From positions 248,001-312,000 of the forward strand of contig NTJZ01000002.1 in NCBI GenBank assembly GCA_002457215.1: 64,000 nucleotides of DNA, read 5' to 3'. A program made the translations under genes and the position numbers. Below, in pieces: positions 39,034-45,336 of this stretch; within the stretch, counting starts at the first letter, position 1; each line of letters opens with the position of its first letter. A model generated the notes under the pieces. It had not been told where the DNA came from and ran no database searches. It saw only the letters and a program-made list of their open reading frames with translations. This DNA comes from OM182 bacterium MED-G28 (GTDB taxonomy: Bacteria; Pseudomonadota; Gammaproteobacteria; Pseudomonadales; Pseudohongiellaceae).

Positions 39034-39299
39034 AAACCCACGCCATTAGTATAAAGCTTCTTTTAAATAGAATTGTAAACACAAAAGGTTAGATAGTCAG
39101 AGTATAAGGGAATTGGATTCTAAAATAGCCTCAAAATTACTTAAATTTACCTTAATAACTATAAGACGGGAAAGCCTAGCTCTTTAACTATTTTGATAGA
39201 TGCACATCTTGTTGCCCAGGAGGCTGTGGGGTATGCTCTGGAGGAGTGTTGACACACTTTTCATCTAAAGAAACCTTGATAATAATTAAAGTGAAAGTC

Positions 39300-40985
39300 A
39301 TGAATAGAAATGGAAGTAATGGAGGTTCAGCGGCTAGATCGTTGGCTTTATATGCAGCATATGTTTTGTTAGCAGTGGCGATACTGATTTACATTTTGGC
39401 TTTTTTTGCGGGCAATACTGGAATTGCTATAAATGGCGGAGCAATAAATGAAGAAAGAAATAGTATAACGATCGCTTTGTCAGAAGAACCTCCACAATTA
39501 GATTCTACCAGGTCGACCGATGCGGTAAGTTTTGTGGTGCTAGCGCACACAATGGAAGGATTGATTGCTTATGATCAAAATGATCAGCTCACGCCAGGAG
39601 CAGCAGAACGTTGGGAGATAAGGGACGACGGTGCAACATTCTGGATCCGAGAAGAAGCGACTTGGAGTGATGGTCAGCCAGTAACCGCTCATGATTTTGA
39701 GTTTGCCTGGAAGCGGGTTCTTGATCCAGATACCGCAGCACAATATGCATTTATTTTGTATCCAATTAAGAATGCTGAAGCAGTGAATCAGGGAGATCTT
39801 CCCAAGGAAATGCTAGGTGTTCGAGCAGTGACAGATTTAGTTTTAGAAGTTGATTTCGAACGACCGACTCCCTATTTTGATAAACTCGTTGCATTCAATA
39901 CTTATTTTCCACTTCGCGAGGATTTTTTTGAAAGCACTAATGGCCGTTATGGTGCTGACGCTGCAATGCTTCTGTCTAATGGCCCTTATATTTTGACTGA
40001 ATGGGTTCATGGCGCCTCAATGGTGTGGGAAAAAAACCCCTATTATTGGAATAGTGAGAAAGGGCTTCTGGATGAAATTGTAACTGCGTATATAACAAAT
40101 GATGCAAATGCAAATCTTAACCTTTTTAAAGATGGTCAGATCGTGCAGACAGGGCTTACGGCTCCTATGTTGCCAACTGCAATGGAGCAAAGATGGCAGA
40201 TAGATAGGTTTATGGATGGGACACTATTTTTCTTAGAATTTAATCACCGGGAAGATCGTGTTACTGATAATTTGAATTTTAGGAAAGCTTTGTATTTCGC
40301 GCAGGACCCATCGGAACTTGTTTATAAAGTCTTGAAGGAAGCAAGCTATTTACCAGCAGAGAGTTTATTCCCAATATGGATTCAGGGTCTTCAAGGAGCT
40401 TTCCGTAAAGAATATCCTCTACCGAAACATAGTTTGGATTTGGAAAAAGCGCGGGAATACTTAGACTTGGCCCGACAAGAATTAGGTCTTGAAGATTTTC
40501 CACCAATTATTTTATTGACTGGAGATTCGTCTTTGTCGTTGCTTGCTGCAGAATACTATCAGGAACTTTATAAAAAGAATTTAGGTCTGGAATTACGCAT
40601 TGATGCTCAAATTTTCAAACAGCGTTTGGCAAAAATGACTTCAGGAGATTTTGATATCGTAATGGCGGGATGGGGCCCAGATTATTTTGACGCACTGACT
40701 TTTGGAGATTTGTTTGCTTCTTGGAATCTTAATAATAGAGGTCGATACCAGAGCGAAGAAATGGATAATCTTGTGAGAACAGCACAATCCGAGCTAGACC
40801 CTCAAAAACGGATGGATGCGTTCGGTAGTATTCAGGAATTGATTAATTCAGATGTCGTTATTATTCCTATGTATGAGCGAGGTGTTTCTTTTGTTGTAGA
40901 CCCTCGATTAAAAGGTTTCAAGCGGAGATCAGTTGGCCCTCAAGTTGACTATAACTATGCTTACATAGATTCATCTCAGAACTAG
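39300..40985 (+). CDS. Oligopeptide ABC transporter substrate-binding protein, membrane-anchored
   Basis: About 561 residues, OppA/DppA class II binding protein. The body has ITIALSEEPPQLDSTRSTD, a WSDGQPVTAHDFEFAWKRVLDP block and NGPYILTEW, all typical. Unlike most OppA proteins it has neither a cleavable signal peptide nor a lipobox; instead a hydrophobic span near residues 17-39 (YAAYVLLAVAILIYILAFFAG) probably anchors it in the inner membrane. Start taken at ATG 39300; the frame is open from 39246. First gene of a five-gene transporter. Confidence 0.88.
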   Translation: MNRNGSNGGSAARSLALYAAYVLLAVAILIYILAFFAGNTGIAINGGAINEERNSITIALSEEPPQLDSTRSTDAVSFVVLAHTMEGLIAYDQNDQLTPGAAERWEIRDDGATFWIREEATWSDGQPVTAHDFEFAWKRVLDPDTAAQYAFILYPIKNAEAVNQGDLPKEMLGVRAVTDLVLEVDFERPTPYFDKLVAFNTYFPLREDFFESTNGRYGADAAMLLSNGPYILTEWVHGASMVWEKNPYYWNSEKGLLDEIVTAYITNDANANLNLFKDGQIVQTGLTAPMLPTAMEQRWQIDRFMDGTLFFLEFNHREDRVTDNLNFRKALYFAQDPSELVYKVLKEASYLPAESLFPIWIQGLQGAFRKEYPLPKHSLDLEKAREYLDLARQELGLEDFPPIILLTGDSSLSLLAAEYYQELYKKNLGLELRIDAQIFKQRLAKMTSGDFDIVMAGWGPDYFDALTFGDLFASWNLNNRGRYQSEEMDNLVRTAQSELDPQKRMDAFGSIQELINSDVVIIPMYERGVSFVVDPRLKGFKRRSVGPQVDYNYAYIDSSQN

Positions 40986-41026
40986 AATTGGGTAATTCTA
41001 GCGAAAAAGCAAACGACTAGGTTTAT

Positions 41027-41962
41027 ATGTTTTTATTTGGATTTAAACGTTTACTTCAGGGCGTGGTAACAGTCTGGTTTATCGCTACTGCTACATTTTT
41101 TGCTATGCATAATGTGCCAGGTGATCCTTTGCTTAATGAGCGAGCAGGAAGTGAGGCAATAAAAGCAAACCTTGAATCTAAATATGGCCTAGATCAACCT
41201 TTAAGTACCCAGTATTTTATTTATCTACGAAATTTGTCTAGGGGTGATTTTGGAATTTCTTTCACACAAGAAAATCGCGAGGTAAATGATATAATCCGAG
41301 AACACTTCCCTGTCTCTGCCATTCTTGGAATTCTTGCCATTGTATTCGCAGCGACAGGTGGAGTTTTATTCGGAGCTCTTACCGCTCTTTATCGCAATAG
41401 ATTGCCTGACTACATTATTATGATTCTTGTGATACTAGGTATTTCTGTGCCTAGCTTCGTCATTGCTGCAATGAGTCAATTGATGCTTGTCGGAATTAAT
41501 AATATGGCCGGGTCGACAATCTTGCCGGTAGCAGGATGGGGCACTATTTTGCACATGCTAGTGCCAGCCCTCGTGCTCGGTCTGGGCACTATGGCGTATC
41601 TTACGCGGTTAATGAGATCGTCTATGTTAGAAATTATTGGTTCAGATTATATAAGAACCGCTAAATCAAAAGGTGTGCCCCCTCCACGCATATTTGCCAA
41701 ACACCAACTTCGTAATGCGATCTTGCCAGTTGTTACGGTATTAGGACCTTCGATTGCCGCTATTACTACCGGCGGCTTTGTTGTTGAGCTAGTGTTTGCG
41801 ATACCGGGTCTAGGCAGATATTTCGTTCAGGCTGTTCAGCAGTTGGATTATACGGTGATTATGGGTACTACAGTATTCTATGGAGCTTTTTTGGTTTTTA
41901 TGGTCATCTTGGTTGATATTCTTTACGGCTTTATAGATCCTAGAGTTAGATTAGAAAAATGA
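41027..41962 (+). CDS. oppB: Oligopeptide ABC transporter permease OppB-like
   Basis: 311 residues, six-span permease. The N-terminal FKRLLQGVVTVWFIATATFFAMH, the PGDPL loop, and the EAA region YIRTAKSKGVPPPRIFAKHQLRNAILPVVT near 205-234 that contacts the ATPases are all standard for OppB/DppB. It overlaps the oppC-like gene by four bases (ATGA), giving coupled translation. Confidence 0.92.
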   Translation: MFLFGFKRLLQGVVTVWFIATATFFAMHNVPGDPLLNERAGSEAIKANLESKYGLDQPLSTQYFIYLRNLSRGDFGISFTQENREVNDIIREHFPVSAILGILAIVFAATGGVLFGALTALYRNRLPDYIIMILVILGISVPSFVIAAMSQLMLVGINNMAGSTILPVAGWGTILHMLVPALVLGLGTMAYLTRLMRSSMLEIIGSDYIRTAKSKGVPPPRIFAKHQLRNAILPVVTVLGPSIAAITTGGFVVELVFAIPGLGRYFVQAVQQLDYTVIMGTTVFYGAFLVFMVILVDILYGFIDPRVRLEK

Positions 41963-43323
41963 CTAATCTAACCTCTACAGATTTTGAGCCAATTCGTCAT
42001 GCTCAGGAAATCCAAGGTATTTCTCGCCCGTCTTTGTCTTATTGGCGCGATGCATGGATTCGGCTAAAAGCTAATAAAAGGGCTGTCTCCTCACTTTTCC
42101 TAGTTATAGGTTTGCTTCTATTCACCATAGTTGGTCCTATCGTGTGGAATGTAGATCCAGCTCTCCAGGACTTGGATCAGGTCGGTCAACCGCCAGGCAG
42201 CGGGCGTTTGGCAGTAATTGTAAATGAATATGAACCATGGGCTGGGGAATCTGAAGCTATAGGAACTGGGTTACGCTTGGCGGAAAATGCAACGACTATG
42301 GCTGTCAGGCTGAAATGGGATAATTTATCTAGCGCTGTTGGATACCGAATTTACCGAAATATTTTCCCCGTTGGGCCGGAGCGAGCATACGGAATTCCAC
42401 TGGCAGAATATTTTGATAATACTGTACTGTATTTTGAAGATCGTCTCGATCTTAAGCCAAGGCGTTACTACTATTCGGTAGTTCCTATAGACGCGACCGG
42501 AATTCTTCTTGATGGATACCAAACTATTACAGTTGATGTTTTAAGGGTTACGACTTTAGCTGAAGTAGAGTCTCAAGGATTATCTGCGGCAAATATTAAT
42601 TTGGAAATCGGTGATAGTGTCAATTTAGCTTTACACCCTTTAGGTACAGATTATTTGGGTAGAGATATGCTTGCTCGGCTAATGGCGGGGGCGAGAGTAT
42701 CCTTGTTTATTGGTATCGGTGCACCTTGCCTATTTATATTATTCGGCATCGTTTATGGCAGTATAGCTGGTTTTCTTGGGGGTAGAATTGATCAAATTAT
42801 GATGCGCTTTGCTGACTTTGTTGTAGCGTTGCCTTTTCTATTATTTATGATTCTTTTTAAAATAGCATTTGGAATCGGACCAGGAGAAAGTGGTATTTTC
42901 CCAATGCTGGTAGCCTTAGTTATCTTAATGTGGCCTGCTACGGCAAGATTAGTTAGAGGGCAAATATTACAAATTAGAGAACAAGGCTATATTGGAGCTT
43001 CCCGCCTGTTAGGCGCTAAGACAAACTATTTAATATTAAGACATATGCTACCTAATACTCTTGGCGTAGTATTAGTGACAATAACGTTTGCGATACCGGG
43101 TGCAATATTCATCGAGGCATTTCTCTCTTTTATCGGAATGGGCGTTGCTCCGCCAACCCCTTCATGGGGATCGATGTCAAATGAGGGCATTAAGAACATG
43201 CTGACATCGCCGCATGAACTTATTTTACCGGCAATACTTATTAGCGTTACAGTCTTAGCTTTTAATCTCTTGGGTGATGGATTACGTGATGCGCTTGATG
43301 CGCGACTGAGGAACCAGGAATGA
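41959..43323 (+). CDS. oppC: Oligopeptide ABC transporter permease OppC-like with FN3-like insertion
   Basis: 454 residues, about 150 more than usual OppC/DppC. The first span (about 43-63) and DPALQDLDQVGQPPG are normal, as are HPLGTDYLGRDMLARL at about 226-241, the EAA loop (GASRLLGAKTNYLILRHMLPN) and the rest of the permease. Between residues about 80 and 225 lies an extra periplasmic domain. Its middle, AVRLKWDNLSSAVGYRIYR through RRYYYSVVPIDATG, reads as a fibronectin type III fold. Flanking genes and overlaps are regular, so the insertion is not a frame artefact. Role unknown; possibly docking of the anchored binding protein. Confidence 0.9.
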   Translation: MTNLTSTDFEPIRHAQEIQGISRPSLSYWRDAWIRLKANKRAVSSLFLVIGLLLFTIVGPIVWNVDPALQDLDQVGQPPGSGRLAVIVNEYEPWAGESEAIGTGLRLAENATTMAVRLKWDNLSSAVGYRIYRNIFPVGPERAYGIPLAEYFDNTVLYFEDRLDLKPRRYYYSVVPIDATGILLDGYQTITVDVLRVTTLAEVESQGLSAANINLEIGDSVNLALHPLGTDYLGRDMLARLMAGARVSLFIGIGAPCLFILFGIVYGSIAGFLGGRIDQIMMRFADFVVALPFLLFMILFKIAFGIGPGESGIFPMLVALVILMWPATARLVRGQILQIREQGYIGASRLLGAKTNYLILRHMLPNTLGVVLVTITFAIPGAIFIEAFLSFIGMGVAPPTPSWGSMSNEGIKNMLTSPHELILPAILISVTVLAFNLLGDGLRDALDARLRNQE

Positions 43324-44369
43324 GGGGGCAAAAAAAATCCAGGATCGGCTCTAAATTGCTTGAGGTTAGAAACCTTGAAGTTGAATTTGATACATATGGA
43401 GGAATTGTTAAGGCTGTTAGAGGTGTGGATTTTTCTGTTGATAGTGGTAAGACTCTGGCAATAGTGGGTGAATCTGGTTGCGGTAAGTCGGTTACTGTGC
43501 AAAGTATGATGGGTTTAATACCTATGCCTCCAGGAAGGATTACATCGGGGTCAGCTTTGTTAAGGGGCCAAGAAGTTTTGGGAGATACGATAATTGAAGG
43601 GAAAGAGATCAGGGGTGCTGAGATAGGCATGATATTTCAGGACCCTATGACATCCCTGAATCCGACTATGACTATCGGAAATCAAATTGCTGAGCCACTG
43701 CAGATTCATCGTGGATATAGTTATCGGCAGGCATTTAATGAAGCCATTAACTTACTGGATATGAGCAAAATTCCAGAAGCCGCAAAGCGCGCCAAACAAT
43801 ACCCCTTTGAGTTCTCCGGTGGCATGCTACAGCGAGCCATGATAGCGATGGCAATTTCATGTAAGCCATCAATTTTGGTTGCTGATGAACCCACCACAGC
43901 TCTAGATGTAACAATACAAGCACAAATTCTGGACCTGATGCGTGATCTTCAGAGTCAAACAGGCATGGCGATTATTCTCATTACTCATGACCTTGGAGTT
44001 GTTGCAAGGATGGCTGACGAAGTTGCAGTCATGTACGCAGGTAAAATTATCGAACATGGAACTGTTGAAGATGTGTTCTATCGTTCAGCACATCCTTATA
44101 CTCTTGGTTTGCGTGCTGCAATGCCTACTAATGATCCGGCAAATCAGCACCAGCTTAATCCGATAGAGGGAAGTCCTCCAGACCTGTTTTCACCACCTCC
44201 TGGTTGTGGATACTGCGCGCGATGCCCTTGGGCGATGTCGATATGTCACAAGAGTCATCCAGAGGATTATTATCTTAATAGTGGTCATTATAGCCGTTGT
44301 TGGTTGCATCACAACGACTCCAAAATCAAGCCTAATCAACTTTCTTTCAGTGAAGAAGTCCGTGGTTAA
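43320..44369 (+). CDS. oppD: Oligopeptide ABC transporter ATP-binding protein OppD-like
   Basis: 349 residues. Walker A GESGCGKS near 50-57, signature FSGGM near 165-169, Walker B ILVADEPTTALD near 185-196. The C-terminal oligopeptide/dipeptide domain carries the cysteine set CGYCARC...C...C (about residues 299-334), the pattern that binds an iron-sulfur cluster in DppD-type proteins. Starts in an ATGA overlap with oppC and ends overlapping the start of the second ATPase gene. Confidence 0.92.
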   Translation: MRGQKKSRIGSKLLEVRNLEVEFDTYGGIVKAVRGVDFSVDSGKTLAIVGESGCGKSVTVQSMMGLIPMPPGRITSGSALLRGQEVLGDTIIEGKEIRGAEIGMIFQDPMTSLNPTMTIGNQIAEPLQIHRGYSYRQAFNEAINLLDMSKIPEAAKRAKQYPFEFSGGMLQRAMIAMAISCKPSILVADEPTTALDVTIQAQILDLMRDLQSQTGMAIILITHDLGVVARMADEVAVMYAGKIIEHGTVEDVFYRSAHPYTLGLRAAMPTNDPANQHQLNPIEGSPPDLFSPPPGCGYCARCPWAMSICHKSHPEDYYLNSGHYSRCWLHHNDSKIKPNQLSFSEEVRG

Positions 44370-45336
44370 TCATTTGGAAGTTCCTATTTTAGAAACGCAG
44401 AATCTAACCCGTTATTTCGATATAGGAAAAAAGCAAGTTGTTCATGCTGTAGATGGAGTGAGTATTTCTGTTGGCGAAAAAGAAATAATGGGACTGGTGG
44501 GAGAGAGTGGCTCTGGTAAGTCCACTCTTGGCAAGACCATACTGGGGTTGCACAATAAAACGTCCGGCAGCGTCAGTTTTCGCGGTCAAGCTCTACCTCA
44601 GAAATATCAATCGAAAGATTTTCAGAAATGGTCTAAGAAAATGCAGATGATATTTCAGGATCCATATTCCTCTCTAAATCCAAGGATGACAGTTGGAGAG
44701 ATTGTTGGAGAGGGCTTACGTCTGCATTCTGAAAGTGATGCCGTGAAAGTTAAGGAGCGAGTGGCTGATTGGCTCAGCAAAGTAGGGTTGCAGGCAGATC
44801 ATATGTCGCGTTATCCACATGAATTTTCAGGAGGCCAACGACAAAGAATTGGGATTGCCAGAGCACTAATTCTAGAACCAGAGTTTATCGTTTGTGATGA
44901 GCCTATTTCAGCTTTGGATGTTTCGGTTCAGGCACAGGTAATTAATTTACTGGGTGAGCTTAAAGAAACAATGGGGCTTACTATGTTGTTTATTGCCCAC
45001 GACCTTTCTATGGTTCGATACGTTAGCGATCGAATGGCGGTTATGTATCTTGGCTCATTGATGGAAGTGGGGAAAGCCAATGAAGTGTACTTCGATCCCA
45101 AGCATCCTTACACAGAGGTACTTATTGGATCAAATCCAGAGCCTGACCCAAAAGTGGAAAGGAACCGGCCGTCGACGGCGATTCAGGGAGAGATTCCATC
45201 TCCAGTGAATGTGGCTCCAGGGTGCCGCTTTGCTAGCCGTTGTCCGAAAGTAATGGAGGTGTGTTTACAAACTACGCCCGAGCTTCTTCCTCTGAAAGAC
45301 ATCGATCGTAGCGTCGCTTGTCACCTTTACCTCTAA
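44362..45336 (+). CDS. oppF: Oligopeptide ABC transporter ATP-binding protein OppF-like
   Basis: About 324 residues. Walker A GESGSGKS near 47-54, signature FSGGQRQR, Walker B FIVCDEPISALDVS, and the C-terminal CRFASRC...C...C pattern. The frame is open back to 44206 inside oppD, but homologues begin near PILETQNL, so a GTG at 44362 (or GTG 44350, TTG 44374) is the likely start, eight bases before the oppD end. It pairs with OppD to power peptide import. Confidence 0.9.
   Translation: MVNHLEVPILETQNLTRYFDIGKKQVVHAVDGVSISVGEKEIMGLVGESGSGKSTLGKTILGLHNKTSGSVSFRGQALPQKYQSKDFQKWSKKMQMIFQDPYSSLNPRMTVGEIVGEGLRLHSESDAVKVKERVADWLSKVGLQADHMSRYPHEFSGGQRQRIGIARALILEPEFIVCDEPISALDVSVQAQVINLLGELKETMGLTMLFIAHDLSMVRYVSDRMAVMYLGSLMEVGKANEVYFDPKHPYTEVLIGSNPEPDPKVERNRPSTAIQGEIPSPVNVAPGCRFASRCPKVMEVCLQTTPELLPLKDIDRSVACHLYL

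Follow-up and report, generated by a model that had tools for sequence, protein, structure and literature searches.

Escherichia coli MalF, a permease of the type I maltose importer, carries a large folded insertion on the periplasmic side, the P2 region (residues 91-271), which has an Ig-like fold and sits between TM3 and TM4. Molecular dynamics simulations are described in which P2 undergoes rigid-body motion close to the binding protein (PMC3150292). A study from 2008 describes P2 as limited to one clade of MalF proteins, and the Thermotogales MalG as bearing a clade-specific large hydrophilic insertion whose function is given there as unknown (PMC2246101). Closer in family is the pneumococcal peptide importer Ami, in which two extra extracellular domains of AmiC, ECD1 and ECD2, are modelled as clamping the binding protein, with ECD2 contacting its lobe 1 (PMC11192437). 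A smaller periplasmic element, the DppB scoop, lies between TM1 and the alpha3 helix, docks the binding protein and enters the DppA cleft (PMC12136057). E. coli OppC and DppC (PDB chains 8z21_B and 8z1y_B, from OppBCDF and DppABCDF) contain no inserted domain.

The window analysed here, a stretch of 64,000 nucleotides, holds an SBP-oppB-oppC-oppD-oppF operon at 39300-45336 on the forward strand, where SBP is the substrate-binding protein and the oppC gene encodes a permease with an inserted domain (Table 1). Compared with the systems above, MalF P2 and the Thermotogales MalG insertion belong to another permease family, and the DppB scoop is an element of ~30 residues, made up of two short helices plus a loop, on an OppB-type subunit. 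Taking AmiC to correspond to OppB and AmiD to OppC, the Ami importer has its extracellular domains on AmiC, whereas here the subunit corresponding to AmiD bears the domain. The earlier note on this DNA knew of no characterised permease like this one, a claim that holds narrowly: a targeted literature search, with subscription journals largely outside its scope, found no description of a fibronectin type III (fn3) domain in an OppC, which is apparently undescribed, but large periplasmic insertions are already known from MalF P2, the two AmiC domains and Thermotogales MalG (PMC3150292, PMC11192437).

Table 1. Features of the operon, with positions in the window
Feature	Position	Strand	Evidence or remark
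Oligopeptide-binding protein (SBP_bac_5, OppA-like), 561 aa from ATG 39300	39300..40985	+	Pfam PF00496, E 4.8e-68
Putative N-terminal transmembrane anchor of the binding protein	39342..39410	+	Uncleaved by sequence reading; hydrophobic segment common to SBPs of the close clade
OppB-type permease, 311 aa	41027..41962	+	Pfam BPD_transp_1 2e-39, BPD_transp_1_N 8.6e-8
OppC-type permease with insertion, 454 aa	41959..43323	+	Pfam, PDB alignment
Inserted region, OppC residues 81-225 (~145 aa), between TM1 and TM2	42199..42633	+	Pfam, PDB alignment, hydropathy, relatives
Predicted fn3 domain, OppC residues ~102-187	42262..42519	+	hhalign against a bacterial fn3 profile; PDB profile search; AlphaFold2 strands
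Segment after the fn3 domain, OppC residues 188-225	42520..42633	+	Last strand 188-193, short helix 200-205
OppD-type ATPase, 349 aa	43320..44369	+	Open frame; named by position and best BLASTP matches in related loci
OppF-type ATPase, 376 aa from GTG	44206..45336	+	Open frame; named by position and resemblance to relatives

The gene order was assigned by Pfam for the SBP, OppB and OppC and by resemblance within related loci for OppD and OppF, and in those loci it is maintained, by best BLASTP matches, wherever the contig is long enough. The open frame of the binding protein begins with GTG at 39246, and its product scores 208.9 bits against the OppA model PRK15104, under the cut-off of 947. 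For the OppF-type ATPase, relatives suggest a later start (~320 aa). An OppC_N profile search of the window's own genome, which is ~90% complete, returned the insert-bearing oppC as its sole match, so this variant may be the main oligopeptide route of the organism.

Position and fold of the insertion

Both Pfam domains of OppC/DppC-type permeases are present above their gathering scores, OppC_N at residues 27-79 (50.8 bits vs. 23.9) and BPD_transp_1 at residues 263-451 (110.4 vs. 26.4). None of the NCBIfam OppC equivalogs exceeded its curated cut-off, the best being Opp3C (289.9 vs. 450) and PRK15406 (210.9 vs. 433). E. coli OppC aligns to residues 25-62 and 226-449, the insert falling in the gap between them, and over the two E. 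coli chains the alignment breaks off at residue 62 or 80 and resumes at 225-226. Kyte-Doolittle hydropathy places TM1 at residues 39-69, with further hydrophobic stretches following at 237-277. Because the Pfam domains, the PDB alignment and the hydropathy flank the insert, its ~145 residues are assigned to the normally periplasmic loop between TM1 and TM2. The earlier note had read a clean insertion into this loop of a 454-residue OppC-type permease, with about 145 residues added, and these data bear it out; the interval that it gave, 42166-42633, corresponds to OppC residues 70-225.

Used as a separate query, the insert gave no Pfam or NCBIfam match at E<=1. The Pfam fn3 model (PF00041) did not match the window's insert at its gathering score, and among 25 insert members it matched one, at E 0.13. 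Alignment of the insert profile with a bacterial fn3 profile in hhalign gave probabilities of 94-95 and scores of 46.0 and 49.2; none of 200 column shuffles scored as high in either test (maxima 19.3 and 17.2) and the reversed profile reached 9.3 and 10.2, a similarity to fn3 domains beyond chance. A PDB profile search with the insert had as its top match 3mpc, an Fn3-like structure (E 0.018). In a search of 369 genomes from the class, the insert profile matched strongly only its own gene; 11 further places, in eight other genomes, matched weakly, and nine of these became loci, seven of the eight read by eye resembling fn3 modules.

AlphaFold2 predicted strands at residues 115-119, 128-134, 147-151, 158-162, 169-177 and 188-193 and a two-residue bridge at 106-107. 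The order of these six strands and the bridge fits fn3, a seven-strand beta-sandwich, and block pLDDT was 73-89 across residues 101-190. Outside the insert the whole-protein model is weak (mean pLDDT 65.9, pTM 0.48), and comparison of the whole model with known folds, which barely tests the insert, gave only transporter chains and no fn3 chain among the best 50 matches listed. Together, the profile comparisons and predicted strands identify residues ~102-187 as a probable fn3 domain. The fn3 fold proposed in the earlier note for the middle of the insert thus stands on profile-profile comparison and structure prediction, and fails with the Pfam fn3 model alone. In the segment that follows, residues 188-225, positions are partly conserved, and it leads back to the HPLGTD motif.

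Distribution, origin and selection

A scan of a sequence collection with a single short peptide pattern recovered the insert in 74 further loci from uncultured organisms, whose titles mostly read Gammaproteobacteria, Pseudomonadales, Pseudohongiella or Proteobacteria, with one Rhodospirillaceae. A whole-protein search covered 58 genomes, 37 of them from the window's own genus (its own included). Within the genus, 24 of the 37 have an insert-bearing gene, one (G023) has a broken copy, and 12, in a set that includes several incomplete genomes, gave no match at E<=0.001. Translation of 23 of the 24 genes, with script-picked starts, yielded proteins of 451-458 aa; the remaining one runs into a contig end. 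Three further families of the order are represented (G047, G049, G057), with the insert-bearing gene at 51-58% identity. In G023 (L105:5764-8166 and L029) the oppC copy is interrupted by 12 in-frame stops and oppD has a short frame, the frames of the SBP and oppB being of full length.

Among 390 genomes drawn from the order, 66 matched the insert profile and 62 remained after exclusion of the broken copy and of G070, G186 and G362, whose frames of 1703-4098 aa are not permeases. Of 398 genomes from the phylum, six matched: the window's own, four from one family of another class, and one weak match. Each of the 20 regions fetched (17 from the order, three from the other class) contains an insert-bearing OppC-type frame next to oppB, oppD and oppF. 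A survey of OppC homologues, which the earlier note had called for, finds the insertion common within the clade. A local oddity or assembly error was rejected on the same recurrence across genus, order and collection loci.

A class-wide OppC_N search matched 61 of 143 genomes, and none of 18 OppC-like frames read by eye, from 20 fetched places that mostly have long open frames, has an fn3-like insert. In plasmid records, the one set surveyed that extends past the phylum, tblastn with a short-insert OppC matched 3325 records, none with one place covering 80% of the query, which is a hint only, as such matches may be split. Insert length ranges over 132-191 residues among lineages, depending on the cuts used; the longest of 26 measured (L028:2182-2754, 191 residues) has an extra stretch ahead of the fn3 part. 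The same TM1-TM2 loop is occupied differently elsewhere. L166:6041-7540 (-), in G041 from another family of the order, encodes a 500-aa OppC-type protein with an insert of ~200 residues that has a weak match to the Ig-like Big_2 family (E 0.029, below cut-off) and is perhaps an independent insertion. Four OppC-type proteins (L168:6407-7510, L169:6327-7484, L186:1327-2496 and L197:1238-2311) have a different, shorter insert there (~50-80 residues).

A tree of the permease core, the part after the insert, was built from 74 rows. Nine of the 74 collection loci were dropped for length or X and every second of the remaining 65 was used, together with 20 further insert-bearing sequences, the window and 20 hand-picked insert-less OppCs; L166, missed by the motif search, was left out. 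The 54 insert-bearing rows fall on one side of a branch with SH-aLRT 100, adjoining plain proteobacterial OppCs, and insert presence requires one change on the tree, a count as low as which occurred in 0 of 500 shuffles. This and the permease tree used below were quick trees without bootstraps and with long-branch warnings, the long branches in the core tree being among plain OppCs. The pattern fits a single origin of the insertion; the core tree needs no second, is compatible with more, and would hardly reveal losses because its insert-bearing rows were mostly found via the insert.

Two pairs with dS <1 gave dN/dS of 0.12 and 0.07 for the insert and 0.02 and 0.04 for the core; two more, saturated pairs gave 0.10 and 0.08 for the insert, the remaining pairs being partly or fully saturated. 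These ratios indicate purifying selection on the insert. They speak against the domain being a tolerated ornament that merely stabilises the loop, a reading for which the variable insert length (132-191 residues) can be cited. In the 58 genomes the whole-protein search found no insert-less permease near the family, the best insert-less match reaching 46% over the C-terminal part, so no loss of the insert was seen there, and we consider an ornament quite unlikely.

Possible roles of the domain and the anchored binding protein

We favour, at a probability of roughly 0.55, a role of the insert as a docking platform for the binding protein, resembling MalF-P2 or AmiC-ECD2. The inserted unit, comprising the predicted fn3 domain, an extra strand ahead of it and a short helix behind it, enters the periplasmic TM1-TM2 loop of OppC just ahead of the HPLGTD motif, and would place the domain on the periplasmic face, next to the second lobe of the binding protein. 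As a side platform it could hold the loaded binding protein above the pore as the OppB scoop enters the cleft, a holding role akin to that thought for MalF-P2 or AmiC-ECD2, from other positions. The position of the insert is consistent with docking because, in the published AlphaFold model of pneumococcal Ami, the TM1-TM2 loop of AmiD (64-99) is in contact with the binding protein at lobe 2 (PMC11192437).

Co-divergence was examined over 62 operons (the window and 61 loci) by partial rank correlation given the variable cytoplasmic columns and the permease core. The insert and the SBP correlate at 0.48-0.55 (0.39-0.47 with only 150 SBP columns), about as strongly as the SBP and the periplasmic scoop region of OppB, a known kind of contact (0.40-0.49), and the insert and the cytoplasmic columns at 0.13-0.24 (0.15-0.27 with 150 SBP columns). 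With uncorrected distances, an initial run yielded 0.51 for insert and SBP and 0.24 for insert and OppB. These values do not prove contact because, in another set-up, the SBP and OppD, a pair not expected to touch, reached 0.31 and the insert and the periplasmic part of OppB 0.34-0.47; shared periplasmic location and fast evolution may account for the insert-SBP signal.

The domain might instead bind another partner, such as peptidoglycan, a peptide channel of the outer membrane or a different envelope protein, and so place the importer near its substrate source. Bacterial fn3 modules often occur in secreted or surface enzymes, and over 51 relatives mean identity to the window is 52% for the insert and 83% for the core, the faster divergence being in keeping with such a partner. 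Co-divergence of the insert with the SBP and the periplasmic part of OppB exceeds that with the cytoplasmic parts and weighs, weakly, against it. We regard an envelope partner as unlikely, ranking it second after docking, which is the most likely reading.

Conserved residues of the insert include R133, G145, P147 and D161, which are strongly conserved, and W120, Y132, L163 and Y172. The last four lie at usual positions of fn3 core residues, and to that extent speak against the domain touching the peptide itself, as a selectivity filter or secondary receptor. For the first four an fn3 core offers no obvious explanation and, with the location near the binding protein suggested by the AmiD analogy (PMC11192437), they would suit peptide contact, which we nevertheless hold to be very unlikely. 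Docking of the binding protein remains the best reading of the earlier note's suggestion that the domain docks either binding protein or substrate. Four genomes of another class bear the insert, and in the three inspected (L149, L150 and L151, from one family) the operon with the insert-bearing oppC has no SBP gene immediately next to oppB within the stretch seen, which counts against docking.

A tentative and broader possibility is that the OppC TM1-TM2 loop is a slot filled more than once by beta-sandwich domains, in the fn3 clade and, unrelated to it, in L166, giving a second, lobe-2-side arm that would seat the binding protein and was later reinforced by membrane anchoring. The clade would serve as a natural experiment on how far a folded OppC-side domain helps peptide importers to dock their binding proteins, a matter so far studied on MalF-P2 and OppB-type scoops.

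The earlier note had argued for docking from the membrane anchor of the binding protein, and that argument does not survive comparison across the clade. Signal peptides and anchors were judged by eye and hydropathy. Within the scanned range, a long N-terminal hydrophobic segment is present in 65 of the 67 full-length SBPs of the 74 loci; the anchor of the L051 SBP lies just past that range and the L068 frame has none, and three SBPs have a lipobox-like match inside the segment. In the outer lineages all 14 SBPs read by eye have an ordinary-looking signal peptide, in operons whose OppC bears the insert. Dependence of the insert on an anchored SBP was accordingly rejected.

On the permease tree, anchored vs. 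signal-peptide SBP requires one change, a count that cannot separate gain of the anchor from its loss. All close rows were labelled anchored in the first run, and one change was again obtained without seven rows, L051 and L068 among them, whose SBP N-terminus is partial, absent or undisplayed, and then also without the three lipobox-like rows. Rooting on insert-less OppCs places the anchored operons inside the insert clade, so the anchored state is most likely the later one. The membrane anchor in the window's lineage is thus most likely an addition and not the reason for the domain, suggesting an order of events with the domain first and the anchored binding protein later. Two loci (L096:1382-4810 and L097:1370-4813) have two tandem SBP genes with N-terminal hydrophobic segments ahead of oppB.
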